The notes under the pieces: model-generated
The model's input: the letters and a program-made list of their open reading frames with translations, nothing else
Databases searched by the model: none
What the model was told of the DNA's origin: nothing
Shown here: one piece after another, positions 1,208-33,895 of the stretch
Layout: every line of letters begins with the position of its first letter
Numbering within the stretch: the first letter of the stretch is position 1
Assembly: GCF_015209745.1 (NCBI RefSeq)
Contig: NZ_CP063657.1
Coordinates: 310,001-374,000 of the forward strand
Direction: 5' to 3'
From: Lysobacter avium
Lineage (GTDB): Bacteria; Pseudomonadota; Gammaproteobacteria; Xanthomonadales; Xanthomonadaceae
DNA: 64,000 nt
Translations under genes and position numbers: made by a program

Positions 1208-1237
1208 TGCATCCGCAGACGCTGCGACATTCGTAGA
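1208..1237 (+). promoter_or_regulatory. Candidate ECF (SigE/ChrR-type) promoter upstream of the photolyase
   Basis: TGCATCC at 1208-1214 is followed after 17 bases by CGTAGA at 1232-1237, about 85 bases before the photolyase ATG. The same heptamer with a 16-base spacer and CGTA recurs upstream of the desaturase operon and the fasciclin gene. The pairing with the nearby ECF sigma factor is inferred from the shared motif and the kind of genes that carry it. Confidence 0.55.
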
Positions 1238-1322
1238 CTGCGCCTGGCCACGACACCATTTGTCGCCCCGGCATGGATTCAATCTGTCCGGCGTTTGCAT
1301 GCGTCCACAGGGAGCACCATTG

Positions 1323-2735
1323 ATGGGTACCGCACTCGTATTGTTCCGCCGCGACCTGCGCCTGGAGGACAACCCGGCGTGGAGCACGGCCTGCGCGGAG
1401 AACGGCCGAGTGCTGGCGCTCTATGTCCACGCGCCTGAAGAAGAAGGGCAATGGGCACCCGGCGCGGCCAGTCGGTGGTGGCTGCACCACTCGTTGTCGC
1501 GGCTGGATTCGCGCCTGCGCGCCGCTGGCGGTCGCCTGCACGTCGCCCGCGGCGACACGCTGGAGGTCGTGCGCGAGCTGGCTGGCCAGACCGGCGCCAC
1601 CGCAGTCCATTGGAACCGGCTGTACGAGCCGGCCAGCATTGCCCGCGATTCAAACCTCAAGGCCGCACTGCGCGAGCAGGGCGTCGAGGCCCACAGCCAC
1701 AGCGGCGCGTTGTGGTCCGAGCCGTGGCAGGTGGAGACCAAGCAGGGCGGCCCGTACAAGGTGTTTTCGCCGTACTGGCGCAACCTGCGCCCGCGCCTGT
1801 CCGCCGCGCCACCCTTGCCGGTGCCGTCGATTGCCGCGTTTGCCCAGGCCAGCAATGGTTTGCCCGTGGAAGCGCTGGAGCTCAGCCCGCGCATCCACTG
1901 GACCGGCGGCCTGGCCGACACCTGGCAACCCGGAGAGGCCGGTGCCCACGAAATGCTGGAAATCTTCGCCGATGATGCGGTGAACGATTACGTCCAGTTG
2001 CGGGATCTGCCCGCCCGCCACGGCACGTCACGGTTGTCGCCGCACCTGCATTTCGGCGAGATTTCGCCGCGCCAGATCCACCATGAGCTGGACTCCCGAG
2101 CCCGCGCCAGCAGCGCGCGCCGCCGTCCGGATATCGAGCCCTATCTGCGCCAGCTGGGCTGGCGTGACTTCGCCCACCACCTGCTTTTCCACTTTCCGCA
2201 CACGCCGACCGAAAGTTTCAATCCGCGCTTCGCCCGTTTCCGCTGGGCCGATGCGGATCACGCGGTGCTGGGTCGCTGGCAACGCGGTCGCACCGGCATT
2301 CCCCTGGTGGACGCGGGCATGCGCGAGCTGTGGCATACGGGCTGGATGCACAACCGCGTGCGCATGATTGTCGCCAGTTTCCTGACCAAGAACCTGCGCC
2401 AGCATTGGCATCACGGTGCGCGCTGGTTATGGGACACCCTGGTGGATGCGGACCTGGCCAACAACACGCTGGGCTGGCAGTGGGTCGCCGGCACTGGCGC
2501 GGACGCGGCGCCGTATTTCCGTGTGTTCAACCCGGTAACCCAGTCAAGGAAGTTCGACGCCGAAGGCAGCTACCTGCGGCGGTGGCTGCCGGAGCTGGAG
2601 GACGCGGACGCCGGCTTGCTGCATGAGCCATGGAAGGATCCCGGCCTGCTGCGCCGCAGCGGTTATCCGGCGCCGATGGTGGACCTCGCACAGTCGCGAC
2701 AGAAGGCACTGGACGCCTACGCACGCCGCGGCTGA
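1323..2735 (+). CDS. phrB: Deoxyribodipyrimidine photo-lyase (cryptochrome/photolyase family)
   Basis: Flavoprotein that uses light to split UV-induced pyrimidine dimers in DNA. At 470 residues it has the usual family length. An N-terminal antenna domain opens with ALVLFRRDLRLEDNPAW. The FAD-binding half shows WRDFAHHLLFHFP near 280, then WHTGWMHNRVRMIVASFLTK near 337-356, and ANNTLGWQWVAGTGADAAPY near 378-397, which are typical of class I CPD photolyases. The ATG at 1323 follows an AGGGAG site at 1309-1314; a longer in-frame reading upstream lacks homology-like sequence. A candidate ECF promoter lies upstream and the sigma factor gene starts 87 bases downstream, as expected for a singlet-oxygen regulon. 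Confidence 0.95.
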   Translation: MGTALVLFRRDLRLEDNPAWSTACAENGRVLALYVHAPEEEGQWAPGAASRWWLHHSLSRLDSRLRAAGGRLHVARGDTLEVVRELAGQTGATAVHWNRLYEPASIARDSNLKAALREQGVEAHSHSGALWSEPWQVETKQGGPYKVFSPYWRNLRPRLSAAPPLPVPSIAAFAQASNGLPVEALELSPRIHWTGGLADTWQPGEAGAHEMLEIFADDAVNDYVQLRDLPARHGTSRLSPHLHFGEISPRQIHHELDSRARASSARRRPDIEPYLRQLGWRDFAHHLLFHFPHTPTESFNPRFARFRWADADHAVLGRWQRGRTGIPLVDAGMRELWHTGWMHNRVRMIVASFLTKNLRQHWHHGARWLWDTLVDADLANNTLGWQWVAGTGADAAPYFRVFNPVTQSRKFDAEGSYLRRWLPELEDADAGLLHEPWKDPGLLRRSGYPAPMVDLAQSRQKALDAYARRG

Positions 2736-2797
2736 ATCCAAATCATCGCGCCGCCCGTATGCAAGGCATCAAGGTCGACCGCAGCGTGCGGGCAGGC

Positions 2798-2825
2798 CAT
2801 CCATCGCTGCCGGCGGGAACGTATG
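2798..2825 (+). promoter_or_regulatory. Weak candidate autoregulatory ECF promoter at the sigma factor gene
   Basis: CATCC at 2798-2802 is followed after 17 bases by CGTATG at 2820-2825, the spacing seen at the photolyase. The bases before CATCC are GGC rather than GTG, so the match is poorer than at the other three sites. The -10-like element overlaps the ATG used for the sigma gene, so either this site is coincidental or translation starts further downstream. Confidence 0.25.
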
Positions 2826-3458
2826 ATGGCTCCAGACAACGCAGTCGCAAAGGTGGTGCCCCTCGGGGCCAAACGACACGTGAGCCAGACGCCGGGCGAA
2901 GCTGCTCCCGATCCGCGCTACTGGGCATTGCAGTTGTCCGCCGTGGCCGTGCAGCGCGACCGTGCCAGCTTCATGCGTATCTACGATTTTTTCGCGCCGC
3001 GGCTGCGGCGCTATCTGCGAAACCTCGGCGTGGCGGAACATCTGGCTGAAGAGCTGGTGCAGGACGCCTTGCTGACCCTTTGGCGGAAGGCCGCGCTGTT
3101 TGATCCGGCGCGCGCCAGCCTGAGCACCTGGCTGTTTCGTATCTCGCGCAATCTCTACATCGACCACGTGCGTCGAGAGCCGCATTGGACTCCGGTCCAG
3201 GAAGGCCTGGACCGCATGGACCTGCTCGAGTCGGATCGCCGTGACTCGCAACCCGAGTCCTTCACCGACCACGACACGCTCCACCAGGCGATCGACGGGC
3301 TGCCGCCGGTGCAGGCCAAGCTGGTGCGCATGTCCTATCTGGAAGCCAAGAGCCATGGCGAAATATCACGGGAGTTGGACATGCCGCTGGGAACGGTGAA
3401 ATCGTCCCTGCGGCGCGCGTTCGCGAAACTCCAGGCCAGCATGGGGAGCCCCGCATGA
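2823..3458 (+). CDS. rpoE: ECF RNA polymerase sigma factor, RpoE/SigE partner of ChrR
   Basis: Group IV sigma factor. Region 2 spans about residues 45-115 (RIYDFFAPRLRRYLRNLGV, then ELVQDALLTLWRKA), with LSTWLFRISRNLYIDHVRRE. Region 4 is near 158-208, with KSHGEISRELDMPLGTVKSS. It is followed by a 4-base overlapping ChrR-type anti-sigma gene, which places it with the R. sphaeroides RpoE group (ECF11), known to respond to singlet oxygen. Start is uncertain: tandem ATGs at 2823 and 2826 follow GGCGGGA, while GTG at 2880 is an alternative if the candidate promoter over 2820-2825 is real. The folded part begins after residue 35, so function is unaffected. Confidence 0.93.
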   Translation: MMAPDNAVAKVVPLGAKRHVSQTPGEAAPDPRYWALQLSAVAVQRDRASFMRIYDFFAPRLRRYLRNLGVAEHLAEELVQDALLTLWRKAALFDPARASLSTWLFRISRNLYIDHVRREPHWTPVQEGLDRMDLLESDRRDSQPESFTDHDTLHQAIDGLPPVQAKLVRMSYLEAKSHGEISRELDMPLGTVKSSLRRAFAKLQASMGSPA

Positions 3459-4138
3459 GGCCGAATCACCACCTCGACGACGCGACCGTGCTCAGCTATT
3501 CCGCCGGGGCTCTGCCGACGGCCATGAACGTGGTGGCATCGGCGCATCTTGAGCGCTGCCCGCATTGCCGCGGACGCGTTCATGTGGCCGAGCGGATTGG
3601 CGGTACCTTGATGCAGCAGCAGCGCGGCGAGGCTCCCCGCCAGGACGACCGCGACGCAATGCTGGCGCTGCTGGACCGCGAGCCGGAAACCGCTCCGGCG
3701 GCGACAGCGTTGGCAAGCAGGGCCGATGCTGCCGATGTGGTCGAGCCGCCGGATCGCGATCGACTGCCGACGGCGCTGCACCCCTGGTTCGGACCCTCCA
3801 TGCGCGCGCTGAAATGGCGTCGGATTGCGCCTGGCGTGCAACGCATCCGGGCCGGCAGCGTGGCGGGCGGTGAACTGATGCTGCTGCGCATTGCGCCGGG
3901 GAGCCGCCTGCCGCTGCACAGCCATGGCGGCACCGAGCTGACGATGATTCTCGATGGCGCCTATGACGACGTGCTGGGACATTTCGGCCCCGGTGATGTC
4001 GCCGACCTCGACGGCCAGACCCTGCATCAGCCAGTCACTGCGCCCGGTGTGCCCTGCGTCTGCGTTGCGGCCACCGACGCGCCGCTGGTGTTCTCCGGAT
4101 GGTTCGCCCGCAGGTTGCAGCCGCTGCTCGGCTTTTGA
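3455..4138 (+). CDS. chrR: ChrR-type zinc anti-sigma factor with C-terminal cupin
   Basis: Holds the upstream ECF sigma factor inactive and releases it under singlet-oxygen stress, by analogy with R. sphaeroides. The N-terminal anti-sigma domain has candidate zinc ligands at His6, His31, Cys35 and Cys38 (HLERCPHC at 31-38), the same numbering as the characterised protein. The C-terminal cupin at about 115-225 has HSHGGTE (His155, His157, Glu161) and His191 in LHQPV, matching a second metal site. At 227 residues the length fits. Its ATG overlaps the sigma stop, so expression is coupled. The role is strongly implied by residue conservation; the inducing signal is inferred. Confidence 0.95.
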   Translation: MRPNHHLDDATVLSYSAGALPTAMNVVASAHLERCPHCRGRVHVAERIGGTLMQQQRGEAPRQDDRDAMLALLDREPETAPAATALASRADAADVVEPPDRDRLPTALHPWFGPSMRALKWRRIAPGVQRIRAGSVAGGELMLLRIAPGSRLPLHSHGGTELTMILDGAYDDVLGHFGPGDVADLDGQTLHQPVTAPGVPCVCVAATDAPLVFSGWFARRLQPLLGF

Positions 4139-4162
4139 CGATCGGTCGCCGGACAGGAGCGG

Positions 4163-4191
4163 TGCATCCACACGGCCCTCTGGGCCGTATC
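4163..4191 (+). promoter_or_regulatory. Candidate ECF (SigE/ChrR-type) promoter of the lipid operon
   Basis: TGCATCC at 4163-4169 (within GCGGTGCATCC, an 11-mer also present upstream of the photolyase) is followed after 16 bases by CGTATC at 4186-4191. It lies 25 bases after the chrR stop and 31 bases before the desaturase ATG, so it would give the lipid operon its own transcript in addition to any read-through from rpoE-chrR. Confidence 0.55.
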
Positions 4192-4221
4192 GGTAATTGA
4201 AGACCCAACCGGTTGCCTCCG

Positions 4222-5226
4222 ATGACCACCCTCCCACCGCCGCCGATCCCGGCGGCCGGTCCCACCCGCGCCAGCGCGTCTTTGAAGACACCTGAGCGGA
4301 GCTTGCCGGCGATCCGCAGTCTGCGGAGCTGGTTTGACTCGGGTGCAGATACGGCATCCGATGGTGACAGCAGCGGGATGGACCGGATCGACTGGCTGCG
4401 CGCAACGCCGTTCATCGCCATGCACGTGGCCTGCGTCGCGGTGCTCTGGGTCGAGGTGTCCCCGGTGGCCCTGGCGGTGACCGCGGCGCTTTACGTAGTG
4501 CGGATGTTTGCGATCACGGCGTTCTACCACCGCTACTTTTCCCATCGCACCTTCCGCGCGCCACGTGCGGTGCAATTTCTGTTTGCCCTGATCGGTGCCT
4601 CATGCGTGCAGCGCGGACCACTGTGGTGGGCTGCCCATCACCGCACCCACCACCGCCACACCGATACCGCGCAGGATCCACACTCGCCGGCGGTGCGCGG
4701 GTTCTGGTGGAGCCACGTCGGATGGTTCCTGACTCCCCGCAATTTCCGCACCGACCTCTCGCGGGTGCCGGATCTGGCGAAGTATCCCGAGCTGCGCTGG
4801 CTGGATCGCTTTGATGTCGTGGTGCCGGTCGCGCTTGCCTTGAGTCTGTACGCACTGGGGTCCGGATTGCAGGCATTCGCTCCACACTGGGGTACCAGTG
4901 GCGGGCAGATGGTGGTCTGGGGTTTTTTCATTTCCACTACCTTTCTGTTCCACGCCACCGTGACGATCAATTCACTGGCGCACCGCTTTGGCTCGCGGCG
5001 TTTCGACACCCGCGACGACAGCCGCAACAACCTCTGGCTGGCGTTGCTCACCTTTGGCGAGGGCTGGCACAACAACCACCATTTTTTCCCCGGATCCAGC
5101 CGTCAGGGATTCCGCTGGTGGGAGGTCGACCTGACCTGGTACGGCCTCAAGCTCATGGCGGTGTTCGGCCTGGTCAGCGGGCTCAAGCCGGTTCCGGCGT
5201 GGGTGCTGGAAAAGGGGAGGCGCTGA
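4222..5226 (+). CDS. Membrane fatty acid (acyl-CoA/acyl-lipid) desaturase
   Basis: Di-iron membrane enzyme that introduces a double bond in fatty acyl chains, 334 residues, delta-9 type by sequence. The three histidine boxes are HRYFSH (103-108), HHRTHH (139-144) and WHNNHH (282-287), with hydrophobic segments around 55-95 and 200-245. The ATG at 4222 was chosen; a TTG nine bases earlier is also open. It is the first gene of a six-gene run and would supply the unsaturated acyl chains that cyclopropane-synthase-type enzymes downstream modify. Regiospecificity cannot be read from sequence. Confidence 0.92.
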   Translation: MTTLPPPPIPAAGPTRASASLKTPERSLPAIRSLRSWFDSGADTASDGDSSGMDRIDWLRATPFIAMHVACVAVLWVEVSPVALAVTAALYVVRMFAITAFYHRYFSHRTFRAPRAVQFLFALIGASCVQRGPLWWAAHHRTHHRHTDTAQDPHSPAVRGFWWSHVGWFLTPRNFRTDLSRVPDLAKYPELRWLDRFDVVVPVALALSLYALGSGLQAFAPHWGTSGGQMVVWGFFISTTFLFHATVTINSLAHRFGSRRFDTRDDSRNNLWLALLTFGEGWHNNHHFFPGSSRQGFRWWEVDLTWYGLKLMAVFGLVSGLKPVPAWVLEKGRR

Positions 5227-5229
5227 ACC

Positions 5230-6528
5230 ATGCGGATCGCTGTCGTCGGTTCCGGAATTGCAGGCCTCGCCTCGGCGTGGATGCTGTCGCGCCACCACGA
5301 GGTGGTGCTGTTTGAAGCCGATGACCGGCTTGGTGGCCATACCCACACCCACGACGTCGAGCAGGCCGGCCTCAGCTACCGCATCGACAGCGGTTTCATC
5401 GTCCACAACCCGTTGCACTACCCGTTGCTGACGCGATTGTTTGAGCAGCTTGGCGTTGCTTCCCAGCCAACCACAATGAGCTTCGCGGTTCACAACGAGG
5501 CGACGGGGCTGGAGTACAACGCAACCACGCTGGATACCCTGTTCTGCCAGCGCCGCAACCTGCTTTCGCCGCGGTTCCTGGGCATGGTTCGCGACCTGAC
5601 CCGTTTCTATCGCGAGGCGCCCTTGCTGCTGGAATCAGCGGACCCGGGTCCGACGCTGGGCGACTATCTGTCCGGTCGCGGCTACGGCGCTGCATTCCGC
5701 GACGAGCATCTCGTGCCGATGGCATCGGCGCTCTGGTCATCCCCTGCCGGGCAGGTCCTTGGATTCCCGGCGCGGTATCTGGTCCAGTTCATGGCCAACC
5801 ATCAGATGCTGCAGGTCAGCGGCCGTCCACAATGGCGCGTGGTACGCGGGGGCTCGGCGACCTACGTGGACGCACTGCGGGCCCAGTGGGATGTGCGCGA
5901 GCGACTGAACTGCCCGGTCCTCTCGGTGCGTCGCCATCGGCACGGGGTGACCGTGGAAAGCCTGGTCGGCAGCGAGGAGTTCGACCACGTCGTGTTGGCC
6001 TGCCATAGCGACCAGGCCCTGGCATTGCTGGCCGATGCCGACGAGCGCGAGCGCGACATCCTCGCCGCCATGCCGTACCAGGCCAATGAGGCCGTCCTGC
6101 ACACCGACGCGCGCGTGCTCCCCCGCCGACGCAAGGCCTGGGCGGCGTGGAATGCGTGGCTGCCACGTGACCCGGCCCAGGCCTGCACTGTCAGTTATTG
6201 CATGAACCTGTTGCAGGGCGTCCAGTCGCCGGAGCCGTTCGTGGTGACACTCAACCGCAGTGACGCGATCGATCCGGACAAGGTGCTGGCACGGATGCGC
6301 TACCACCATCCGAGCTACAGCCACACCTCGGTCGCAGCGCAGTCGCGCAAGCCCGAGATCCAGGGGCGGCGCAACACCTGGTTCGCCGGCGCCTACTGGG
6401 GCTGGGGCTTCCACGAAGACGGCATGCGCAGCGCGCTGGAGGTTGCCGCGGGACTGGGCGTGCGCTGGCCGCTCAGTCCGCTGGCGCCGGCAAGCGTGAC
6501 CGCCAGTGACGTGGCGTTGGTGACATGA
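5230..6528 (+). CDS. FAD-dependent amine-oxidase-like oxidoreductase of the lipid operon
   Basis: 432-residue flavoprotein. The N-terminal dinucleotide fold has VGSGIAGLASAW (Gly7, Gly9, Gly12), then FEADDRLGGHTHTHDVEQAG, as in the NAD(P)-binding/amine-oxidase family whose members sit beside DUF1365 and cyclopropane fatty acid synthase genes in many proteobacteria. A C-terminal FAD-contacting stretch WFAGAYWGWGFHEDGMRSA lies near 385. The gene begins 3 bases after the desaturase stop and its own stop overlaps the next start. A role in oxidising modified acyl chains is plausible, because a related flavoprotein belongs to the R. sphaeroides SigE regulon, but the substrate is unknown. Confidence 0.85.
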   Translation: MRIAVVGSGIAGLASAWMLSRHHEVVLFEADDRLGGHTHTHDVEQAGLSYRIDSGFIVHNPLHYPLLTRLFEQLGVASQPTTMSFAVHNEATGLEYNATTLDTLFCQRRNLLSPRFLGMVRDLTRFYREAPLLLESADPGPTLGDYLSGRGYGAAFRDEHLVPMASALWSSPAGQVLGFPARYLVQFMANHQMLQVSGRPQWRVVRGGSATYVDALRAQWDVRERLNCPVLSVRRHRHGVTVESLVGSEEFDHVVLACHSDQALALLADADERERDILAAMPYQANEAVLHTDARVLPRRRKAWAAWNAWLPRDPAQACTVSYCMNLLQGVQSPEPFVVTLNRSDAIDPDKVLARMRYHHPSYSHTSVAAQSRKPEIQGRRNTWFAGAYWGWGFHEDGMRSALEVAAGLGVRWPLSPLAPASVTASDVALVT

Positions 6529-7325
6529 GTGCCGTTGAGCCTGCCCCATCTGATGCGCACGCGGCATGGCCGTTGCTGAGCGCGGTGTATGAAGGAGTGG
6601 TCCGCCATCGCCGCCACGCACCCCACCCGCATGCCTTCAACTACCGGATTGCCCAGCTGTATCTGGATCTGGACGAGATCGAGCGGGTGTTCGCCCCGCG
6701 CTGGCTGTGGTCGGATGCGGGTCGCAACCTGGCCGAATTCCGTCGCAGCGACTATCTCGGACCGGCCGGTCTGCCGTTGGCCGAGGCGGTCCGTCAACGC
6801 GTCGACGCGGCGACGGGGCAGCGTCCCGACGGACCGATCCGGCTGCTGACCCACTTGCGCTATGCAGGGCTGGTGTTCAATCCGGTCAGCTTCTACTACT
6901 GCTTCGCCGCCGACGGGCTAACCCTGACAGCGGTCCTGGCGGAGATCACCAACACGCCATGGAAAGAGCGTCATGCCTACGTACTGCCGGTGGATACCGC
7001 GCAGTCCCACGGGCGCGCGTTGCATTGGGAATTTGCCAAGACGTTCCACGTATCACCCTTCATGCCGATGGACTGCCACTACGACTGGCGCTTTACCCCG
7101 CCCGGGGAGGACCTTCGCGTGCACATGCAGGTCAGCCATGACGGTCGGCCGAGCTTTGACGCGACCCTTGCGCTGGAGCGCCGGCCGCTGACCGGTGCGT
7201 CATTGGCGCGGGTCCTGTGGCGCTTTCCGCTGATGACCGCGCAGGTCGTGGGTGCAATCCACTGGCAGGCGCTGCGCCTGTGGCTGAAGCGCAACCCCGT
7301 CCACGACCACCCGTCCATCCATTGA
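6525..7325 (+). CDS. DUF1365 domain protein
   Basis: 266 residues. The opening YEGVVRHRRHAPHPHAFNYR and HLRYAGLVFNPVSFYYCF near 108-125 are hallmarks of DUF1365. The family has no settled biochemical function but is almost always next to the flavin oxidoreductase and a cyclopropane fatty acid synthase, as here. Translation is coupled by an ATGA overlap with the upstream gene, and the cfa-like start follows 14 bases after its stop. A role in making or handling modified fatty acids is inferred from this conserved context. Confidence 0.9.
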   Translation: MSAVEPAPSDAHAAWPLLSAVYEGVVRHRRHAPHPHAFNYRIAQLYLDLDEIERVFAPRWLWSDAGRNLAEFRRSDYLGPAGLPLAEAVRQRVDAATGQRPDGPIRLLTHLRYAGLVFNPVSFYYCFAADGLTLTAVLAEITNTPWKERHAYVLPVDTAQSHGRALHWEFAKTFHVSPFMPMDCHYDWRFTPPGEDLRVHMQVSHDGRPSFDATLALERRPLTGASLARVLWRFPLMTAQVVGAIHWQALRLWLKRNPVHDHPSIH

Positions 7326-7339
7326 GCCGCGAGTCGCCC

Positions 7340-8650
7340 ATGAGCCAGATTGCCGATGCCATTCCCCGCCCATCCCGTGCCGGCGCGCTCGACGGGATGC
7401 TGCGCGCGCAGTTGTTGCGAAGGCTGGACGGCCTGCAGCACGGACAGCTGATGCTGGTGGAGGACGGTGTCGAGCAGGTGTTCGGTAAGGCCGCGGTGGG
7501 ACAGGGCGCGCTGGTGGCGCGTGTAGAGGTGATCGACTCCGCGTTTTACCGCGCCGTCGCGGCCAACGGCAGCGTGGGCGCGGGGGAGGCATGGATGGAC
7601 GGCCTGTGGCGCAGCGACGACCTGGTCGCGCTGATCCAGCTGCTGGTCCGCAACCGCGACATGGTAGATGGCATGGAGGGGGGGCTGGCGCGGCTGGGCG
7701 GCATGGCCATGCGCGCGTGGCATTCGATGCGTCGTAATACCCGCAGCGGCAGCCGCCGCAACATCGCCGCGCACTACGACCTGGGCAACGACTTCTTCGG
7801 TCTGTTCCTGTCGTCGGACCTGATGTACTCCTCGGCGTTATGGACCGGGACGGCCGATACATTGGAGACCGCGTCCTACCGGAAACTGGAGCGCATCTGC
7901 CAGCAACTGGATCTGCGGTCCGGCGATCGTGTGGTCGAGATCGGCACCGGGTGGGGCGGCTTTGCGTTGCACGCAGCGAGGCATTACGGCTGCCACGTCA
8001 CCACCACCACGATTTCCGGCGAGCAGCATGCGCTGGCCAGCCGGCGCGTGGCCGAGGCGGGGCTGTCCGACCGGGTCACGCTGCTGCTGGAGGACTACCG
8101 GGACCTGGACGGCCGCTACGACAAGCTGGTGTCCATCGAGATGGTCGAGGCGATCGGCGCACAGTACCTCGACACGTATTTTTCCAGGATCGGCAGCCTG
8201 CTCAAACCCGACGGTCTGGCGCTGGTGCAGGCGATCACCATCGAAGACCACCGCTACGAGCAGGCGCTCAGGTCGGTGGACTTCATCAAGCGATTCGTAT
8301 TTCCCGGCAGCTTCATCCCCTCCATCAACGCGCTGCTCGCCGCCAAGACCCGGGCCAGTGACCTGGCCGTGGTGGAGCTGCACGACTTCGGCCACTCCTA
8401 CGCGTTGACTTTGCAGGCCTGGCGCGAGCGCTTCATGGCGCAACTGCCCCAGGTGCGCGCGCAGGGGTTTGATGAGCGCTTCCTCCGGATGTGGGAGTTC
8501 TATCTGGCGTACTGCGAAGGCGGCTTCCGTGAGCGCTCCATCGGCGTGGCACATCTGTTGCTCGCCAAGCCCGGGCATCGCCGCCCGGCAGCCGGTCAGG
8601 GCCAGGCGAACGGCACGGCGGGCGACGCCACACGCGGGGCCGCGGCATGA
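7340..8650 (+). CDS. cfa: Cyclopropane-fatty-acyl-phospholipid synthase family methyltransferase (first copy)
   Basis: S-adenosylmethionine-dependent enzyme acting on the double bond of membrane phospholipid acyl chains. 436 residues, with NIAAHYDLGNDFFGLFLSSD near 142 and the SAM-binding VEIGTGWGGFALHAARHYG near 199, both characteristic of the Cfa family. The ATG at 7340 follows the DUF1365 gene closely; the frame is open further upstream without family-like sequence. It could form cyclopropane rings, or methyl-branched acyl chains like the R. sphaeroides homologue that starts furan fatty acid synthesis. Sequence reading alone does not separate the two. Confidence 0.9.
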   Translation: MSQIADAIPRPSRAGALDGMLRAQLLRRLDGLQHGQLMLVEDGVEQVFGKAAVGQGALVARVEVIDSAFYRAVAANGSVGAGEAWMDGLWRSDDLVALIQLLVRNRDMVDGMEGGLARLGGMAMRAWHSMRRNTRSGSRRNIAAHYDLGNDFFGLFLSSDLMYSSALWTGTADTLETASYRKLERICQQLDLRSGDRVVEIGTGWGGFALHAARHYGCHVTTTTISGEQHALASRRVAEAGLSDRVTLLLEDYRDLDGRYDKLVSIEMVEAIGAQYLDTYFSRIGSLLKPDGLALVQAITIEDHRYEQALRSVDFIKRFVFPGSFIPSINALLAAKTRASDLAVVELHDFGHSYALTLQAWRERFMAQLPQVRAQGFDERFLRMWEFYLAYCEGGFRERSIGVAHLLLAKPGHRRPAAGQGQANGTAGDATRGAAA

Positions 8651-9429
8651 ATCCGTGGTCGCAGCTCGCGATGATCTGGCTGCTGGCAGCGCTGGTGATG
8701 ACGCTGGGCTGGCTGTGGCAACGGGCGAAAAGCAATGCCGGCATCGTGGACGTGCTGTGGGCGGCGAGCGTGGGCGCGAGCGCGGTGGTTCTCGCGATCA
8801 CCGGCGGCGGCGCGGTCGGGACCCGGGTCGCGTTGGCGGTATTGGGAGGCGCATGGGGCGGCCGGCTCGCGCTGCACCTGTGGGGCCGGGTCCGCAGTGA
8901 GCCCGAGGACGGCCGTTACCGGTACCTGCGCGCGCACTGGAACGGAAGCCAGCTCAAGTTCTTCGCGTTCTTCCAGGGCCAGGCGTTATTGATCGTCCTG
9001 TTTGCCTTGCCGTTTGTCGCCGTTGCCGGCAACCCGCGGGTGTCGGTCCCTTGGCTGGTTGCGGCAGGCTCCGTCTGGATCGTGAGCGTCTCGGGCGAAT
9101 CGCTTGCAGACCGCCAGCTGGATCGCTTCCGCAAGCATCCCGGCAACCAGGGAAAGACCTGCCGGGACGGCCTGTGGCGCTACTCGCGCCACCCCAACTA
9201 CTTCTTCGAGTGGGTGCATTGGTTCGCCTATGTGTGCCTCGCCGTGGGCTCGCCGATCGATTGGCTGGCGTGGGCCGGGCCGGTCGTGATGTACGTGTTC
9301 CTGCGCTGGATCAGCGGCGTGCCGTACACCGAAAAACAGGCCTTGCGCAGTCGTGGCGAGGACTACCGCCACTACCAGCGCACCACCTCGATGCTCATTC
9401 CCTGGTTTCCCAGGAGGGACACAGCATGA
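8647..9429 (+). CDS. DUF1295 (steroid 5-alpha-reductase-like) integral membrane protein
   Basis: 260 residues with about six hydrophobic segments. The C-terminal half carries GLWRYSRHPNYFFEWVHW near 175-192, the signature of DUF1295 and the wider isoprenylcysteine methyltransferase/steroid reductase membrane fold. Its start overlaps the upstream cfa stop and its stop overlaps the next methyltransferase start (ATGA both times). Homologues are often found in cfa-type operons. Reduction of an acyl double bond is a reasonable guess from the fold but is not shown. Confidence 0.88.
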   Translation: MNPWSQLAMIWLLAALVMTLGWLWQRAKSNAGIVDVLWAASVGASAVVLAITGGGAVGTRVALAVLGGAWGGRLALHLWGRVRSEPEDGRYRYLRAHWNGSQLKFFAFFQGQALLIVLFALPFVAVAGNPRVSVPWLVAAGSVWIVSVSGESLADRQLDRFRKHPGNQGKTCRDGLWRYSRHPNYFFEWVHWFAYVCLAVGSPIDWLAWAGPVVMYVFLRWISGVPYTEKQALRSRGEDYRHYQRTTSMLIPWFPRRDTA

Positions 9430-10499
9430 ACGCCACCACTTCCGAGCTGGCCGTGGACCGTCCAGCCCCCGGCCTGCTGGGGCAGGCCGAACTGGGTCGG
9501 ATTCCCGATGGTGTGTTGCGCCTGGGTATCCGACGCCTGTGCGCGCAGCGATTGCGCGAGGAGCGCGAAGGAGGGGTTGCGGGCCAGGCCGCGCGCTACG
9601 CAGAGCGTATGGCCATGCTCAGGCACAGCCCGGTCGCCATCCATACCGAGGCCGCCAACGCCCAGCACTACGAGTTGCCGCCGGGCTTTTTTGAGCTTTG
9701 CCTGGGCAAGCGCCTGAAGTACTCCAGTTGCTACTACCCGCGCGGCGATGAATCCCTGGACGAGGCGGAGGAGGCGATGCTGGCGCTGTATTGCGAGCGC
9801 GCCGAGCTGGCCGACGGGCAGGACATCCTGGAGCTGGGCTGTGGCTGGGGATCGCTGACCCTGTGGATGGCCGAGCACTACCCGGCCGCACGCATCGTCG
9901 CCGTATCCAACTCGCATCAGCAGCGCGAGCATATCCTCGCGCGCTGCCGCGAACGCGGCCTCGCCAATGTGCAGGTGCGCACCTGCGATGTGAACCTTCT
10001 CGAGCTGGATGGCGCGGCCTTCGACCGCTGCGTGACCATCGAGATGTTCGAGCACATGCGCAACTACGAAACCTTGTTGGGCCGCATCGGTGATTGGCTG
10101 CGTCCGGGCGGCAAACTGTTCGTCCACATCTTCGCCCACCAGCACCTGATGTATCCGTTCGAGACGCACGGCGATGACAACTGGATGGGCCGGCACTTCT
10201 TCACCGGCGGGCTGATGCCGGCCGCCGACACGCTGCTGTGGTTCCAGTCCAGCCTGCGCATCGACCAGCGCTGGCATCTGGACGGCACCCATTACCAGCG
10301 CACCGCCAATCACTGGCTGGCCAACCAGGACGCGCAGCGCGACGCCGTGATGCGGGTGCTCACCCAGGCCTACGGCCAGCAAGGAGCGGCGCTGTGGTTC
10401 CAGCGCTGGCGCATGTTCTGGATGTCGTGCTCGGAGCTGTTCGGCTTCGACGATGGCCAGCAGTGGCTGGTTGCGCATTACCGCTTCGTGCGTCCCTGA
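9426..10499 (+). CDS. Cyclopropane-synthase-like SAM methyltransferase (second, shorter copy)
   Basis: 357 residues. It shows NAQHYELPPGFFELCLGKRL near 78-97, YSSCYYP, the SAM motif LELGCGWGSLTLWMAEHYP near 135-153, and FEHMRNYETLL near 207, placing it in the Cfa/coclaurine-N-methyltransferase-like branch. It is distinct from the longer enzyme two genes upstream, so the pair is not a simple recent duplication. It is the last gene of the tightly overlapping run that begins at 4222. Its substrate could be the same unsaturated lipid, a product of the first enzyme, or something unrelated. Confidence 0.88.
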   Translation: MNATTSELAVDRPAPGLLGQAELGRIPDGVLRLGIRRLCAQRLREEREGGVAGQAARYAERMAMLRHSPVAIHTEAANAQHYELPPGFFELCLGKRLKYSSCYYPRGDESLDEAEEAMLALYCERAELADGQDILELGCGWGSLTLWMAEHYPAARIVAVSNSHQQREHILARCRERGLANVQVRTCDVNLLELDGAAFDRCVTIEMFEHMRNYETLLGRIGDWLRPGGKLFVHIFAHQHLMYPFETHGDDNWMGRHFFTGGLMPAADTLLWFQSSLRIDQRWHLDGTHYQRTANHWLANQDAQRDAVMRVLTQAYGQQGAALWFQRWRMFWMSCSELFGFDDGQQWLVAHYRFVRP

Positions 10500-10740: not shown

Positions 10741-11190
10741 ATGAGCCAGTACCGCAAAGACCCCGATGCCATCCAACAGCTGACGCTCGAGCAGTTCCGC
10801 GTCACCCAGCAATCGGGCACCGAAGCGCCCGGCAGCGGCGAGTACCTCCACCACAACGCGCCCGGCATCTATGTGGATGTCGTGTCCGGTGAGCCGCTGT
10901 TCGCGTCGGCGGACAAGTTCGACGCGGCCTGCGGCTGGCCCAGCTTCACCAAGCCGATCGAACCGGCCCACGTCAGCGAGGTGCGCGACACCAGCCATGG
11001 CATGGTCCGGGTCGAGGTGCGCTCCACCCACGGCGACAGCCATCTGGGTCACGTGTTCCCCGATGGGCCACCGGATCGCGGCGGGCTGCGGTATTGCATC
11101 AACTCGGCCTCGCTGCGCTTCATTCCGCGCGACCAGATGCAGGCCCAGGGGTACGGCGACTACCTCGACCAGGTGGAGGGCGGGCGATGA
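10741..11190 (+). CDS. msrB: Peptide methionine-R-sulfoxide reductase MsrB
   Basis: Reduces the R-epimer of methionine sulfoxide in oxidised proteins; 149 residues. Catalytic Cys119 sits in [12 protein letters not shown] and a candidate resolving Cys64 in [13 protein letters not shown], with [15 protein letters not shown] before it. The CxxC pairs that bind zinc in many MsrBs are absent ([11 protein letters not shown] replaces them), so this is the zinc-free form. An AGGAG site at 10731-10735 lies six bases before the ATG. The 241 bases upstream of this gene hold no gene I can support. Its stop overlaps msrA. Confidence 0.95.
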
Positions 11191-11726
11191 GCACGGAACG
11201 CGCAGTACTCGCCGGCGGCTGCTTCTGGGGCATGCAGGACCTGATCCGCCGCCAGGAAGGCGTGGTGTCCACGCGTGTGGGCTACACCGGCGGCGAGATA
11301 GCCAACGCCACCTATCGCAACCATGGCAACCACGCCGAGGCCATCGAGATCGTGTTCGACCCGGCGCGGACCAGCTACCGCAAACTGCTGGAGTTCTTCT
11401 TCCAGATCCACGACCCCTCGACGGTGGACCGGCAGGGCAACGACCGGGGCGCGTCCTACCGCTCGGCGATCTTCACCACCTCCGACGAGCAGCGCCGGGT
11501 CGCGCTGGACACCATCGCCGATGTCGACGCATCAGGCCTGTGGCCGGGGAAAGTCGTTACCGAAGTCGTGCCTGCCGGTGATTTCTGGGAGGCCGAACCC
11601 GAGCACCAGGATTACCTGGAGCGCATTCCGCATGGATATACCTGCCACTTCATCCGCCCGGGCTGGACGCTGCCGCGGCGCGGGTCTGCGGGCGGAAGCG
11701 ACGCCGGGCCCACGCAGCAGACTTGA
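11187..11726 (+). CDS. msrA: Peptide methionine-S-sulfoxide reductase MsrA
   Basis: Reduces the S-epimer of methionine sulfoxide, complementing MsrB. 179 residues with catalytic Cys12 in [27 protein letters not shown] near 32-51 and [20 protein letters not shown] near 75-94, all family hallmarks. The ATGA overlap with msrB gives coupled production of both stereospecific repair enzymes. No resolving-cysteine tail is seen, so recycling probably relies on internal cysteines or thioredoxin directly. Location beside the SigE-type lipid operon fits an oxidative-damage repair role. Confidence 0.96.
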
Positions 11727-11797
11727 AACCCGTCGCAACGGACCTACGTTGGCAATGGGGCCCAGTTCACGCCCCGAAGCAGACAAAGGAGACAGTC

Positions 11798-12280
11798 ATG
11801 AGCAAGATCGTGCGTAATCCGCAATGGTCCGGCGATGGCAGCAGCCAGGACCCTTTGCGACAGCTGGTTGATCGAATCTTCGATGGGGCGTTTTCCTCGT
11901 CGACGGCGACGGACGAATCCTCGGTGGTCACCAGCCGCTGGACTCCGCGGGTGGATATCAAGGAAGAGGCGGATCGTTTCGTGCTTTACGCCGATATCCC
12001 CGGCGTCGACCCGGCTGAAATCGAAGTCCAGATGGACAAGGGGATGTTGACGATCAAGGGTGAACGCAGCAGCGATAACGTCCAGGAGAGCGAGAAATTT
12101 TCCCGCGTTGAACGCCGTTATGGCGCATTCCACCGGCGTTTCGCGCTGCCTGACAGTGCCGACCCCGAAGCGATTTCCGCCCACGGTGAAAACGGCGTAC
12201 TGGAAATCAGTATCCCCAAACGTCCGGAAACCACGCCGCGCCGAATCCAGGTGGGTGCGCGTAAAACCGGTGACGCCTGA
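11798..12280 (+). CDS. Hsp20/alpha-crystallin small heat-shock protein
   Basis: ATP-independent holdase, 160 residues. The alpha-crystallin domain spans about 46-150, with VDIKEEADRFVLYADIPGVD, then MDKGMLTIKGERS and the terminal-strand motif NGVLEISIPKRPE. The C-terminal tail lacks a clear IxI/V anchor beyond RRIQVG. The ATG follows an AAAGGAG-like site at 11785-11791. It lies 71 bases after msrA in the same direction, so it may be co-transcribed or have its own promoter; no convincing sigma-32 promoter is visible. Confidence 0.95.
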   Translation: MSKIVRNPQWSGDGSSQDPLRQLVDRIFDGAFSSSTATDESSVVTSRWTPRVDIKEEADRFVLYADIPGVDPAEIEVQMDKGMLTIKGERSSDNVQESEKFSRVERRYGAFHRRFALPDSADPEAISAHGENGVLEISIPKRPETTPRRIQVGARKTGDA

Positions 12281-25116: not shown

Positions 25117-25131
25117 TGGCTCCGGTCGGCG

Positions 25132-29359: not shown

Positions 29360-29944
29360 ATGACTGCCCACGACCCGGAATTCGATCCCGACGACAATTT
29401 CGCCAACGGCCTGGAGTCCGGCACCGGCGTGGACCTGGAGTCGGCCGACACCCGCGAGGCGCTGGTCTGGCAGTTGCTGCTGCTGATCAATCCGGGCGAC
29501 GAGGAGTCTGCCCTGCAGCAGTTCTCCGCCTATCGCGAGGCGCTGGAGGCCGCGGGCCCCGAGGAGGTCGAGCCGCTGTGGCTGCTGAAGGACCTGATCG
29601 ACTGGAAGTCGGGGTTCTTCGTCGACGAGGATGACGCGGTCTCGTTCATCGATACCATCACCGAACTGGCGGCGCGATGGAACGTGGTGATCGACTGGGG
29701 CGTGGAGGATGCCAGCGACGAGGATTTCCTCGCCGAGGCAGAAGTGCCATCGCTGATGGCTGTCGCCGCGGACCGCCTGCGCGAATACGGCTACAGCCTG
29801 TGGACCTGGAACACGGCCAGCGGCCCGCACGGCGAGGAAGGCGTCCACGCCGGCTGGATCACCCTGTCCAGCGACGATGAGGCGATGCAGGAAGTGGCCC
29901 AGGCGCTGGAGATCGAAGTGCGTCCGGCCAGCGACCCGTTCTGA
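29360..29944 (+). CDS. Acidic cytoplasmic protein, DUF6630-like
   Basis: 194 residues with strong negative charge. No signal peptide or membrane segment. The region ALVWQLLLLINPGDEESALQ near 34-53 and WVIDWG-type stretch (NVVIDWGVEDASDEDFLAEA near 110-129), then YGYSLWTWNT, resemble the family annotated DUF6630 in Xanthomonadaceae. ATG 29360 lies 82 bases after the HD-GYP gene and the genes may be co-transcribed. No function can be given from sequence; the family label is from memory and moderately sure. Confidence 0.75.
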   Translation: MTAHDPEFDPDDNFANGLESGTGVDLESADTREALVWQLLLLINPGDEESALQQFSAYREALEAAGPEEVEPLWLLKDLIDWKSGFFVDEDDAVSFIDTITELAARWNVVIDWGVEDASDEDFLAEAEVPSLMAVAADRLREYGYSLWTWNTASGPHGEEGVHAGWITLSSDDEAMQEVAQALEIEVRPASDPF

Positions 29945-30004
29945 TTGCCGCTTGCGATTCGCGCGTGGCACACAGCGTCAGTCCGGCTGTTCACGCGAGG
30001 GCGC

Positions 30005-30724: not shown

Positions 30725-31040
30725 CCGGCGATGGTGGCACGGGGCCGCGGGAGGGCTTGCGAACGCCGCTTCCATCGCTGGCATGCGGGGCTGCCGGCGC
30801 CACGTACGGCTTGCAGAACGCGTTTCTGTTAAGGTTGAGGATTGGAATCGCGCGGTCCTCGCTGCATCTTCGCCCATCGTGGCGCTAACGGACCGTTTTT
30901 GCGGCGTTGCCCGTTCAGGTGTTGCTTCCCTGTCGCGGTCCCGCAGCGTGGCGTCGTAGTGGCACCGCCGGTGCACCAATCCGACGCGGCCTGCCGTCCT
31001 TCCGCCTTGCATCCGCCGTCGTCACTTATCGGAGAAGTCC
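30725..31040. other. Intergenic region between divergent glycosyltransferase and symporter genes
   Basis: 316 bases without a supportable gene. It must hold the promoters of two divergent genes. The only clear regulatory candidate is a sigma-54-like element at 30960-30975, listed separately. Short frames here have no ribosome sites or protein-like sequence. Confidence 0.6.
30960..30975 (+). promoter_or_regulatory. Candidate sigma-54 promoter for the symporter gene
   Basis: TGGCAC at 30960-30965, five bases, then GTGCA at 30971-30975. It keeps the invariant GG (-24) and GC (-12) with ten bases between, and differs from TGGCAC-N5-TTGCA at one base. It would start transcription about 54 bases before the TTG. 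The element is also part of a small inverted repeat (GCACC/GGTGC), so chance is possible. Confidence 0.35.
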
Positions 31041-32720
31041 TTGGCTGTTCCCGCGTTCGAGTTCAACCAGCTGCAATCGTCCACTGTCTTGCTGCTGCTG
31101 CTGGCCTTCTACGGCGGGACCTTCCTGATCTCCACGCGCATCGGCCGACGCAAGGAAAACGTCGACGGCTACATGACCTCCAGCAGCCAGGTCGGCTTCG
31201 GCGTATCGGCCGCCAGCATGACCGCGACCTGGATCTGGGCGGCCTCGTTCTACGCCGCGGCGACTTCGGGCTACAAGTACGGCATCTCCGGGCCGATCCA
31301 CTACGGCCTGTGGGGCGCGCTGATGATCCTGTTCATCTACCCCTTCGGGCGGCGCTTCCGCGCACTCGCGCCAGAGGCGCACACGCTGGCGGAGATCATG
31401 CACGCCCGCCACGGGCGCTCCAGCCAGTTGATCCTCGCCGGCTCCAACATCGTCGGCAGCGTGATCAGCCTGATGGCGAACTTCACCGCCGCCGGGGCGC
31501 TGGTGGCGATGCTCTCGCCGCTGGATTTCGTCCACGGCGTCCTGATCGCCGGTATCGGGACGCTGTCCTACACGCTGTGGTCCGGGTTTCGCGCATCGCT
31601 GCTGACGGACGTGGTCCAGGTGGCGGCGATGATGGGCTCTGCGGCACTGATCATCCCGCTGGTCTTTTTCAGCGCGGGCGGCACGGAGATATTCACCCAG
31701 GGCTGGGAGCGGATCAGCGCGGAGCAGTCGACGTTCTTCTCCAAACAGGCATTCCTGGAGCAGGGCGCGCCGTATTTCGTCGCCGTGCTGGCCTACGCGA
31801 TCGGCAACCAGACCATTGCCCAGCGCCTGTTCGCCGTGCGCGAGGACCTGATCAAGCCCACATTCCTGGCAGCCACGGTCAGCTACGGCGCCACGGTGAT
31901 CGGGCTGGGCATGATCGGCGTGTTCGCGTTGATGATCGGCATGAGCCCGGCCGATGGCGACCACAACAATCTGATCCCGCAGATGGCCTCGACCTACCTG
32001 TCGCCGCTGGTGGTGGGGATCTTCTTCATCATGGTGATCGGCTCGCTGTCCTCCACCGCCGACTCGGACCTGTCGGCGCTGTCCTCGATCATGATGACCG
32101 ACATCTATGGCAAGAACCTGGCGCGCGGCAAGGTGCGTCCAACGACGATGCTCTGGGTCGGCCGCATCACCATGATCGTGGCGACCACCGCCGGCCTGAT
32201 CTTCGCCAGTTTCCGCATCGACATCCTGGACCTGCTGGTTTTCGTCGGCGCGCTGTGGGGATCGATCGTGTTCCCGGTGATCGCCAGCGTTTACTGGAAC
32301 AAGGTCACCAACCGCGCCTTTACGGTCGCCGTCGCGGTGTCGCTGGTTTTCTTCATCGTCGCGCGCTTCCAACTGGTCCCGATCGAAGGTGCGCTGGCGG
32401 TCCTGCTGGAGGTGTTTGCCGCGGTAGGCGCCGGCGTGGTGCTGGGACTGATGGCGTTCGGCTTCTTCGGCAAGCGCACCGGACTGACCGTTGGTGTGGT
32501 GGCCGCGCTCGCACTCGTCGTGCCGATGGTCGGGTTCCTGCGCGACTACCCGGTACTGCTGGCATCCCTCAACGCGTACGGTGTCAGCACCATGGTCTGC
32601 TCCGCGCTGAGCGTCGGCAACCACAAACCCTTCGACTTCAACCTGATCGCCAAGCGGGTGACCGCGTTCCAGGAGGACGAGCCTGATGTGGCGGCCATCA
32701 TGTCCAGGTCTGACAACTGA
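31041..32720 (+). CDS. Sodium:solute symporter family protein
   Basis: 559 residues, about thirteen hydrophobic segments, SSS family. RRKENVDGYMTSSSQVGFGV near 33-52, then TATWIWAASFYAAATSGYKY near 59-78 and the sodium-site region SLSSTADSDLSALSSIMMTD near 335-354 are typical. TTG start with GGAG six bases upstream; no in-frame ATG would preserve helix 1. A 43-residue membrane peptide follows 11 bases later, a pattern seen for two-part symporters of this family. The substrate is not evident (urea, amino acid or organic acid are all possible). Confidence 0.88.
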   Translation: MAVPAFEFNQLQSSTVLLLLLAFYGGTFLISTRIGRRKENVDGYMTSSSQVGFGVSAASMTATWIWAASFYAAATSGYKYGISGPIHYGLWGALMILFIYPFGRRFRALAPEAHTLAEIMHARHGRSSQLILAGSNIVGSVISLMANFTAAGALVAMLSPLDFVHGVLIAGIGTLSYTLWSGFRASLLTDVVQVAAMMGSAALIIPLVFFSAGGTEIFTQGWERISAEQSTFFSKQAFLEQGAPYFVAVLAYAIGNQTIAQRLFAVREDLIKPTFLAATVSYGATVIGLGMIGVFALMIGMSPADGDHNNLIPQMASTYLSPLVVGIFFIMVIGSLSSTADSDLSALSSIMMTDIYGKNLARGKVRPTTMLWVGRITMIVATTAGLIFASFRIDILDLLVFVGALWGSIVFPVIASVYWNKVTNRAFTVAVAVSLVFFIVARFQLVPIEGALAVLLEVFAAVGAGVVLGLMAFGFFGKRTGLTVGVVAALALVVPMVGFLRDYPVLLASLNAYGVSTMVCSALSVGNHKPFDFNLIAKRVTAFQEDEPDVAAIMSRSDN

Positions 32721-32731
32721 GGAGCGGAAAA

Positions 32732-32863
32732 ATGCGTGACATCCTGATGACCGCGTATGTGCTGGTATGGCCCACGATCGTGCTGGTGATGATGGTGATC
32801 ATGGGCGTGGGGCTGTATCGCGACATGCGTGCCGCGAAACGCAGTGGGGACGAACTGGTCTGA
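32732..32863 (+). CDS. Small single-span membrane protein, putative symporter small subunit
   Basis: 43 residues: one long hydrophobic helix at about 7-28 (MTAYVLVWPTIVLVMMVIMG) followed by a positive, charged tail (LYRDMRAAKRSGDELV). A GGAG site at 32720-32723 precedes the ATG. It starts 11 bases after the sodium symporter stop. Small single-helix partners encoded directly after SSS-family transporters are known, and this one fits in size and place. Expression and pairing are inferred. Confidence 0.7.
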   Translation: MRDILMTAYVLVWPTIVLVMMVIMGVGLYRDMRAAKRSGDELV

Positions 32864-33038
32864 CTGCACGCCGCGCTGTGCGCCGGTTCGCTAGGATTTC
32901 CCGGCCGCCACTGCCAACGGAATACTGCGTGCCCCCGATCATTGCCTGCCAGCAGCTCACGCCCACGCGCGGAACTTCCTCCCCCATCGGCATTTTGCCG
33001 CCGGCGCAGTCACTCCGCATCGGCCGGGAACAGAGCGC

Positions 33039-33830
33039 ATGATCCTGGCGACAATCCAGGCCAACCCGGTACTGGGTGCCCTTTGTGGTGGCCTGATCGC
33101 AGCAGGGGCGACCGCGCTGGGCACACTGCCGGCGTGGTTCTCGCGCGGCATCAGCGAACGCTTCCAGGACGCGCTGTTGGGATTCGGAGCCGGCGTAATG
33201 CTGGCCGCGAGCGCTTTCTCGCTGGTCCTGCCCGGCCTGCAGGCGGCCGGGGAGAGCGGGCTGGGGCCGTGGAGCTCCGGGTCCCTGGTCGGTGCCGCGA
33301 TCCTGGCCGGCGCACTGGCGATCATGCTGATGGAGCGCTGGGTTCCGCACGAACATTTCATCAAGGGACCGGAAGGTCCGTCGCCGGCCCGCCTGAAACG
33401 CGCGTGGTTGTTCGTCTTCGCGATCTGCCTGCACAACCTGCCCGAGGGACTCGCGATCGGCGCCGCATTCGCCTCCGGCCACGCACACGGCGTATTGCTG
33501 ACCACTGGCATCGCGATCCAGGACCTGCCCGAGGGCCTGGTGGTGGCGATCGCGCTGATGGCGGTCGGTTATGACCGCACCCGCGCCGTACTGGTGGGAG
33601 CGGGTTCGGGACTGATCGAACCGGTCGGAGCCGTGTTGGGCGCCAGCGTGCTGGTCGCGGCGCCGTTGCTGTTGCCAGTGGGCCTGGGCTTCGCCGCCGG
33701 GGCGATGCTGTTCGTGGTCAGCCACGAGATCATTCCCGAGTCGCACCGCCAGGGACACGAACAGCACGCCACCTCGGGGCTGATGGTCGGCTTCGTGCTG
33801 ATGATGCTGCTGGATACCGCCCTTGGCTGA
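33039..33830 (+). CDS. ZIP-family metal transporter
   Basis: 263 residues, eight predicted helices. The two metal-binding helices read CLHNLPEGLAIGAAFASGH near 135-153 and IAIQDLPEGLVVAIALM near 162-178, with VSHEIIPESHRQGHEQH near 228-244. ZIP proteins bring zinc or other divalent metals into the cytoplasm; HNLPEG and SHEIIPE are the expected ligand motifs. The second helix has QDLPEG where some ZIPs carry HxxPEG. No metal regulator lies beside it, so which metal is carried is unknown. Confidence 0.92.
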   Translation: MILATIQANPVLGALCGGLIAAGATALGTLPAWFSRGISERFQDALLGFGAGVMLAASAFSLVLPGLQAAGESGLGPWSSGSLVGAAILAGALAIMLMERWVPHEHFIKGPEGPSPARLKRAWLFVFAICLHNLPEGLAIGAAFASGHAHGVLLTTGIAIQDLPEGLVVAIALMAVGYDRTRAVLVGAGSGLIEPVGAVLGASVLVAAPLLLPVGLGFAAGAMLFVVSHEIIPESHRQGHEQHATSGLMVGFVLMMLLDTALG

Positions 33831-33866
33831 GGCGCGCGGACAGTCCGGTTTGTCAAAACCGCGTGA

Positions 33867-33895
33867 TGCATCCATGCAGGACCCGCACCCGTAAC
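33867..33895 (+). promoter_or_regulatory. Candidate ECF (SigE/ChrR-type) promoter of the fasciclin gene
   Basis: TGCATCC at 33867-33873, 16 bases, then CGTAAC at 33890-33895, about 58 bases before the fasciclin ATG. Heptamer, spacing and CGTA match the site before the desaturase operon almost exactly. Fasciclin proteins belong to the R. sphaeroides SigE regulon as I recall it, which supports the assignment. Confidence 0.55.

Follow-up and report, generated by a model that had tools for sequence, protein, structure and literature searches.

The 64,000-nucleotide stretch of Lysobacter avium DNA analysed here (contig NZ_CP063657.1, positions 310,001 to 374,000, forward strand; "the window") carries an extracytoplasmic function (ECF) sigma factor gene, an adjacent gene for the anti-sigma factor ChrR, and the motif TGCATCC-N16/17-CGTA upstream of several start codons. 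With a probability of about 0.9, this motif is a two-box promoter for RNA polymerase bound to the window's ECF11-type sigma factor, and the set of marked genes is best read as a known regulon with a lineage variant of the -35 box, mostly (T/C)GCATCC. The motif is not private to the partner of ChrR, and by itself it does not define the regulon of one sigma factor. The sites and the two regulatory genes are listed below.

1208-1235 (-35 box 1208-1214, -10 box 1232-1235), plus strand: probable photolyase promoter, TGCATCC-N17-CGTA, 87 bases before the start codon
2733-2759, plus strand: predicted autoregulatory promoter of the sigma gene, TGAATCC-N16-CGTA(TGC), 63 bases before the ATG at 2823, conserved in near relatives
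2823-3458, plus strand: ECF sigma factor of the ECF11/RpoE type, with Pfam region 2 and region 4 domains; nearest solved chain 2q1z_A RpoE
3455-4138, plus strand: ChrR anti-sigma factor, zinc anti-sigma domain and cupin (TIGR02451; 2z2s_B)
4163-4189, plus strand: predicted lipid-operon promoter, TGCATCC-N16-CGTA, 32 bases before the ATG at 4222, conserved
33867-33893, plus strand: predicted fasciclin promoter, TGCATCC-N16-CGTA, 59 bases before the ATG at 33953, kept in L363, L364 and part of the family

Exact matches to TGCATCC-N16/17-CGTA number three in the window, all on the plus strand, compared with a mean of 0.02 in 100 shuffles. This bears out a first-pass annotation of the same DNA, which had picked out these three sites upstream of the start codons at 1323, 4222 and 33953 (87, 32 and 59 bases away). 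The spacer is 17 bases at 1208-1235 and 16 bases at 4163-4189 and 33867-33893. A search of both strands with TG[ACG]ATCC-Nk-CGTA, k being 12-21, returned N16 sites at 2733, 4163 and 33867, an N17 site at 1208 and nothing at any other spacer. In 210 kb of ChrR loci the spacer of GCATCC-Nk-CGTA is 16 bases long in 42 cases; any other length between 8 and 26 is seen 0-2 times, and reversed boxes likewise 0-2 times. N16 is the rule for this motif. The first two sites had been said to share an 11-base identity; a shared flank exists, but it is 12 bases long, AGCGGTGCATCC, and neither Lysobacter sp. A03 nor L. antarcticus keeps it at the lipid site.

The sigma gene's own promoter, as read from the sequence, is 2733-2759, a site that the first-pass annotation missed. 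That annotation had pointed to a weaker copy, CATCC-N17-CGTA at 2798-2823. The letters are there, but the -35 half is not kept in the two nearest relatives (L268 and L269), the spacer is 17 bases and the -10 box overlaps the start codon, and 2798-2823 was rejected as the sigma promoter. In Lysobacter sp. A03 and L. antarcticus, TGAATCC-N16-CGTATGC lies as far upstream of chrR as 2733-2759 does in the window, and the three-way alignment keeps both boxes with a variable spacer sequence. The TGA of the window's -35 box is also the stop codon of the photolyase gene. TGAATCC precedes the sigma gene in eight further loci, six of which (L270, L273, L275, L279, L282 and L283) carry their photolyase gene after chrR instead.

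Two collections of loci were used for comparison, and some of their members may be the same species. The first is a sample of 119 family genomes, in which the E-value limits were 1e-10 for ChrR and 1e-25 for the window-type sigma factor. ChrR and the window-type sigma factor occur in the same 18 genomes, host included; 17 ChrR-positive loci were compared besides the host's, that of G104 being in two pieces. The second consists of the best 80 of 224 loci from a ChrR-alignment scan of named genomes, 77 of them usable for the region upstream of the sigma gene (the upstream sequence of L291, L292 and L300 was too short, and they were omitted). ATCC-N16-CGTA precedes the sigma gene in all 17 family loci, with the -35 box as TGCATCC in 14 and as CGCATCC, GGCATCC and GGGATCC in one each. 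Among the named loci a site on the sigma strand is found in 76/77, always with N16, the sole exception being L317, which has none; the reversed-box control gave 0/77. The 76 sites have the forms TGCATCC (52), TGAATCC (10), CGCATCC (5), GGCATCC (4) and five others, and of the 16 named loci whose ChrR is closest in sequence identity to that of the window, 10 have TGAATCC. The motif as a whole is matched 89 times in the 18 ChrR genomes, compared with 28 for the control, and GCATCC-N16-CGTA is absent from a comparison set of 29 rpoH loci of other genomes.

The two regulatory proteins are those of an ECF11/RpoE-ChrR system: the sigma factor is nearest to RpoE, the adjacent ChrR has a complete set of ligands, and ATCC-N16-CGTA lies before the sigma gene itself. 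Against solved chains the sigma factor matches 2q1z_A RpoE at E=2.5e-29, with 4nqw_A SigK second at 3.7e-12. ChrR scores 169.9 bits with NCBIfam TIGR02451 (cut-off 124.5) and matches 2z2s_B at E=2.4e-32. Its residues H6, H31, C35 and C38 together with H155, H157, E161 and H191 are invariant across 13 aligned sequences, and they align with all eight metal ligands named in PMC6852236. In a tree of 39 loci chosen from the 80 plus the window, the sigma-ChrR pair groups with rows from Rhodanobacter and Luteibacter (support 96/98), apart from most Lysobacteraceae rows, and four other sampled genomes of the host genus have no sigma-ChrR pair. This suggests lateral gain or hidden (old) paralogy of the window's sigma-chrR. 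The ChrR switch of the window's lineage would be of the Rhodanobacter type, and no SigK-RskA switch was detected.

Closely related promoters have been described in other bacteria. Shewanella RpoE2 promoters have been reported as TGATCC-N16-CGTA, two of them with mapped starts (PMC4336711). The sites of P. syringae PSPTO_1043 found by chromatin immunoprecipitation sequencing (ChIP-seq) are also TGATCC-N16-CGTA, and the tctD site is already gcATCC (PMC5507510). The systems are alike in the two boxes and in the 16 bases from the -35 hexamer to CGTA, but the -35 box is TGATCC in Shewanella and Pseudomonas, whereas TGCATCC, CGCATCC or TGAATCC is found at 67 of the 76 named sites of the present comparison. 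The TGATCC form occurs in only one of these 76 sites, that of Pseudomonas tremae L341 (as GTGATCC); the window has TGCATCC or TGAATCC instead. The motif resembles a Lysobacterales version of that published promoter, in which ATCC-N16-CGTA is kept and the preceding bases differ.

The first-pass annotation had also likened the marked genes to those under RpoE-ChrR in Rhodobacter, and the published regulon is in line with this. The RpoE regulon of R. sphaeroides has been reported to include a photolyase, a cyclopropane synthase, an RSP_1091-type protein and the fasciclin RSP_1409 (PMC7074977). The window resembles it in the sigma-ChrR pair, the eight ChrR ligands and the kinds of genes; it differs in its desaturase-led operon and in the -35 GCATCC. 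The genes of that operon, with the frames as read, are given below.

4222-5226, plus strand: fatty acid desaturase (Pfam FA_desaturase)
5230-6528, plus strand: FAD-dependent amine oxidase-like oxidoreductase (Pfam Amino_oxidase)
6525-7325, plus strand: DUF1365 protein (Pfam)
7322-8650, plus strand: cyclopropane-fatty-acyl-phospholipid synthase-like gene, start uncertain (Pfam CMAS on 7217-8650; NF008686 below cut-off)
8647-9429, plus strand: DUF1295 protein (Pfam)
9051-10499, plus strand: frame with a second CMAS-type methyltransferase (Pfam CMAS on residues 201-440 of 482), the gene probably starting after 9429

A site lies before the desaturase in 43 of the 44 named loci with the desaturase start in view, the search having allowed -35 variants with GC, GA or GG before ATCC. 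Conservation before orthologous genes is uneven: it is nearly complete for the desaturase, partial for the fasciclin gene and low for the photolyase gene (3/18 named loci). After the lipid operon and on the same strand, genes for methionine sulfoxide reductase A and Hsp20 (11094-12280) have plausible oxidative-damage functions; the TG[ACG]ATCC-Nk-CGTA scan of the window found no motif of their own.

An orthologous operon has been studied in S. maltophilia. RNA sequencing, done once, showed that a chrR mutation raises rpoEc 45-fold and smlt2375-2367 165- to 697-fold (PMC11832516). The rise of the sigma gene and of the orthologous nine-gene lipid cluster in the chrR mutant was reversed without the sigma factor (PMC11832516). 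The sigmaEc-ChrR-ChrA system is like that of the window in gene order, lipid genes and type of site; it differs in that the lipid operon and the sigma gene are divergent and chrR is followed by a ChrA gene. In S. maltophilia D457 (L321) two divergent sites are found upstream of the sigma gene, where PMC11832516 puts the divergent smlt2375. A logo of the sigmaEc box is shown in Fig. 6 of PMC11832516, so the Stenotrophomonas motif may have been published before. The main text of that paper names no fasciclin and no photolyase.

From the sequence, position, spacing and orthologue conservation of the sites and from the ligand-complete ChrR, we infer where the sigma factor would bind, where transcription would start and what the signal may be. 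ChrR would be inactivated, presumably by singlet oxygen or organic peroxide, and the sigma factor freed. The freed sigma factor would then transcribe its own gene from 2733-2759, the membrane-lipid operon from 4163-4189 and the fasciclin gene from 33867-33893, and probably also the photolyase gene from 1208-1235. The fasciclin promoter may perhaps be served by whichever of two switches, ChrR or RskA, the genome carries; in the host only the partner of ChrR was detected.

Several observations weigh against this reading. The stop-codon role of TGA alone would conserve three bases of the sigma -35 box in near relatives. In S. maltophilia sigmaEc was without effect on singlet-oxygen tolerance (PMC11832516), and the signal may therefore differ. 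With its N17 spacer the photolyase site departs from the rule, and it is present in only the 3/18 named loci with the gene in view and in 2/18 ChrR genomes (host and G117; best photolyase match only). The looser GCATCC pattern gives 15 matches in the host genome compared with 7 for its control. The fasciclin site is missing in 4/12 genomes that have ChrR only. Finally, the motif is found in the 101 ChrR-negative family genomes as well, with 274 matches compared with 173 for the control.

Which sigma factor reads the fasciclin site in those genomes? The gene in the window is as follows.

33953-34594, plus strand: fasciclin-domain protein gene (Pfam Fasciclin; N-terminus resembling a secretion signal, read by eye)

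The 55 ChrR-negative genomes with a fasciclin match account for 197 motif matches (control 106), and the 46 without one for 77 (control 67). Mycobacterial mpt83/mpt70 have been reported to be under SigK-RskA (PMC9861118), and a cassette of mpt83, sigK and rskA has been described whose SigK site is conserved in Gram-negatives too (PMC7509140). This SigK-RskA system (ECF18/ECF19) with its MPT83-type fasciclin is found in the family, with an identical promoter and, in some loci, an adjoining fasciclin gene. It differs from the window's system in that RskA replaces ChrR and in that SigK has a cysteine pair that is absent from the window's sigma factor. RskA (PF10099) is matched in 32 of the 119 family genomes. 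GCATCC-N16-CGTA lies before sigK, after rskA or nearby in 25 of 30 RskA loci, which come from 30 of these 32 genomes, 29 of them ChrR-negative; L184, L185, L187, L188 and L189 are without it. The spacer profile at these loci is again sharp, with 32 matches at N16 and 0-2 at other spacers.

A rival reading assigns the fasciclin site, and perhaps also that of the photolyase gene, to a different, SigK-like ECF sigma factor, leaving only the sigma gene and the lipid operon as true targets of ChrR's partner. Among genomes lacking ChrR, the fasciclin site goes with RskA (16/24 RskA-only genomes), and in G099 and G024 a fasciclin gene with the motif stands directly after rskA. For the window, however, this is improbable. 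The host genome (G000) has no PF10099 match, and none of its eight region-2 hits is a clearly SigK-like ECF sigma factor. Of the hits other than the window's sigma factor, L176 matched SigK best (67.8 bits, 29.6%), but the window's own sigma factor came out higher (77.4 bits), and L176 was rejected as SigK; it reads like an ordinary RpoE, with a neighbour that reads as RseA. A second ECF-type sigma gene in the window (43048-43596, minus strand) gives a weak SigK match (28.5 bits, L173). The fasciclin site is found in 8/12 ChrR-only genomes, host included, and in L289, L290 and L293 the fasciclin gene is divergent beside sigma-chrR with a site of its own. Fasciclins have also been reported under RpoE-ChrR in R. 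sphaeroides (PMC7074977) and in Azospirillum, the latter from another paper cited in PMC10949492.

The counts by system, taken in 68 genomes with the best fasciclin match per genome (the front gene of the tandem pair in G002 and G023, two genes in G035), are ChrR-only 8/12, RskA-only 16/24, both 1/1 and neither 1/31. The site is thus present in 25/37 genomes with ChrR or RskA and in 1/31 with neither, a contrast that is one of co-occurrence and is confounded, since the fasciclins of genomes lacking both systems are mostly more distant ones; the reversed pattern was found in 0/69 upstream regions. The sole genome with neither system and a site (G040, locus L169) has the CGCATCC form and 6 motif matches compared with 1 for the control; a third sigma factor, or an anti-sigma factor that escaped detection, may be present there. 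Twelve more fasciclin upstream regions from 11 named ChrR-bearing genomes have TGCATCC-N16-CGTA in eight cases, L365, L367, L372 and L375 being without it. Footprint alignments show both boxes kept in L268, L269, L363 and L364.

The claim that the motif is the recognition sequence of ChrR's partner is thus sustained for that factor's own gene and for the lipid operon, but not as an exclusive property, and the motif does not on its own delimit the genome-wide regulon of one sigma factor, being present at SigK-RskA loci and at fasciclin genes of genomes without detected ChrR. We consider it possible, though at somewhat less than even odds, that in the Lysobacterales RpoE-ChrR and SigK-RskA have come to read one promoter, (T/C)GCATCC-N16-CGTA, and that target genes, the fasciclin gene for instance, keep their promoter while the genome swaps its switch. 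The recognition-helix stretch PLGTVKSx(L/I)RR is largely common to the window-type sigma factor and SigK. The SigK cysteine pair is found in 30/30 family SigK proteins, and the window's sigma factor has A156 and S206 at these positions. The cores of the 185 distinct ChrR-locus sites and 28 distinct RskA-locus sites compared are identical by construction of the search. After the -35 box the ChrR-locus sites favour AA (A in 66% and 62%) and the RskA-locus sites favour G first (71%), and they differ further at the third base after the -35 box and the second base after CGTA.

In a wider sample of the phylum RskA was found in 107/349 genomes. The cysteine pair is present in 30/30 of the loci compared there and the motif in only 3/30, and the SigK promoter was rejected as a phylum-wide trait; a word-pair search of the same 30 upstream regions gave 6/30 at best, compared with 3 in one shuffle. 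Sharing of the promoter would therefore be a trait of the family or order and not of SigK in general. Only G019 carries both ChrR and RskA, where 4.8 genomes would be expected from the margins (p=0.04, kinship ignored). Mutual exclusion of the two is not claimed, since a single co-occurring genome and a p value uncorrected for kinship are too weak. Sharing among ECF groups in general is already known (PMC3817407). A statement that the ChrR and RskA systems share a promoter was not found in a literature search that left subscription journals mostly outside its reach, and the sharing of one promoter by two ECF switches is possibly a new point.

That the motif is a transcription-factor binding site and not a sigma promoter is very unlikely. 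A pair of conserved boxes is not by itself proof of a promoter, but the fixed 16-base spacing, the position upstream of starts, the presence beside sigma genes and the match to the Shewanella promoters (PMC4336711) and the P. syringae ChIP-seq sites (PMC5507510) all argue for promoter recognition by a sigma factor. A chance or compositional coincidence is harder still to credit, despite 201 reversed-control matches in the 119 family genomes and an intragenic site among the five host matches, given three sites in 64 kb where 0.02 are expected, conservation before orthologues and the N16 spacer peak. Where the sigma, lipid and fasciclin sites are concerned, chance can practically be dismissed; it may account for a site before rpoH and, with less likelihood, for the photolyase site.

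The photolyase site is the weakest and least certain of the window. The gene behind it is the following.

1323-2735, plus strand: DNA photolyase/cryptochrome-family gene (Pfam FAD_binding_7 and DNA_photolyase; NCBIfam models below their cut-offs)

The named loci with the site are those of Lysobacter sp. A03 and L. antarcticus (N17) and L298 (N16). In nine named loci the photolyase gene starts directly after chrR, at most about 45 bases away, and there it may be transcribed from the sigma promoter. The gene divergent from the photolyase promoter in the window (1-1104, minus strand) matches Phage_GPD and reads as VgrG-like.

In the host genome as a whole (2.85 Mb) the exact motif occurs five times compared with once for the reversed control, a small set that includes one intragenic site. 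The two matches outside the window are an N16 site before rpoH and an N17 site within an amidase gene, on the opposite strand. The latter (L005) lies within an Amidase_2 gene beside a PAAR protein and looks like type VI secretion. The ten extra matches to the looser pattern all fall within frames of more than 150 codons, as do the three window sites, these being mechanical reading frames. The rpoH site is an exact TGCATCC-N16-CGTA, 100 bases before the gene (219496-219522 of the host genome, 1501-1527 of L001) and, by reading, between udg and rpoH. Among 50 rpoH loci, searched over 350 bases upstream with at most one mismatch, such a site was found in none of the 16 other ChrR-positive genomes and in 1/33 ChrR-negative ones (G104 has no rpoH match). 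In R. sphaeroides rpoHII belongs to the RpoE regulon. If the rpoH site of the host is true, it would form a sigma cascade as in Rhodobacter.

For a stress regulon of the large order to which Lysobacter, Stenotrophomonas, Luteimonas and Rhodanobacter belong, these results provide a promoter definition that has a fixed spacer and can be put to use, and they correct the predicted location of the sigma gene's own transcription start site, whose promoter would be 2733-2759. They also show that a promoter motif alone does not reveal which sigma factor is in charge. The RpoE-ChrR system of R. capsulatus has been reported to be nearer to SigK-RskA than to R. sphaeroides RpoE-ChrR, the reason being left open (PMC7074977). 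If the ChrR and SigK-RskA switches do share a promoter, regulons can change their sensors while the target promoters stay unchanged, and this would explain how the photo-oxidative response of R. capsulatus could be run by a SigK-RskA-like pair instead of RpoE-ChrR.

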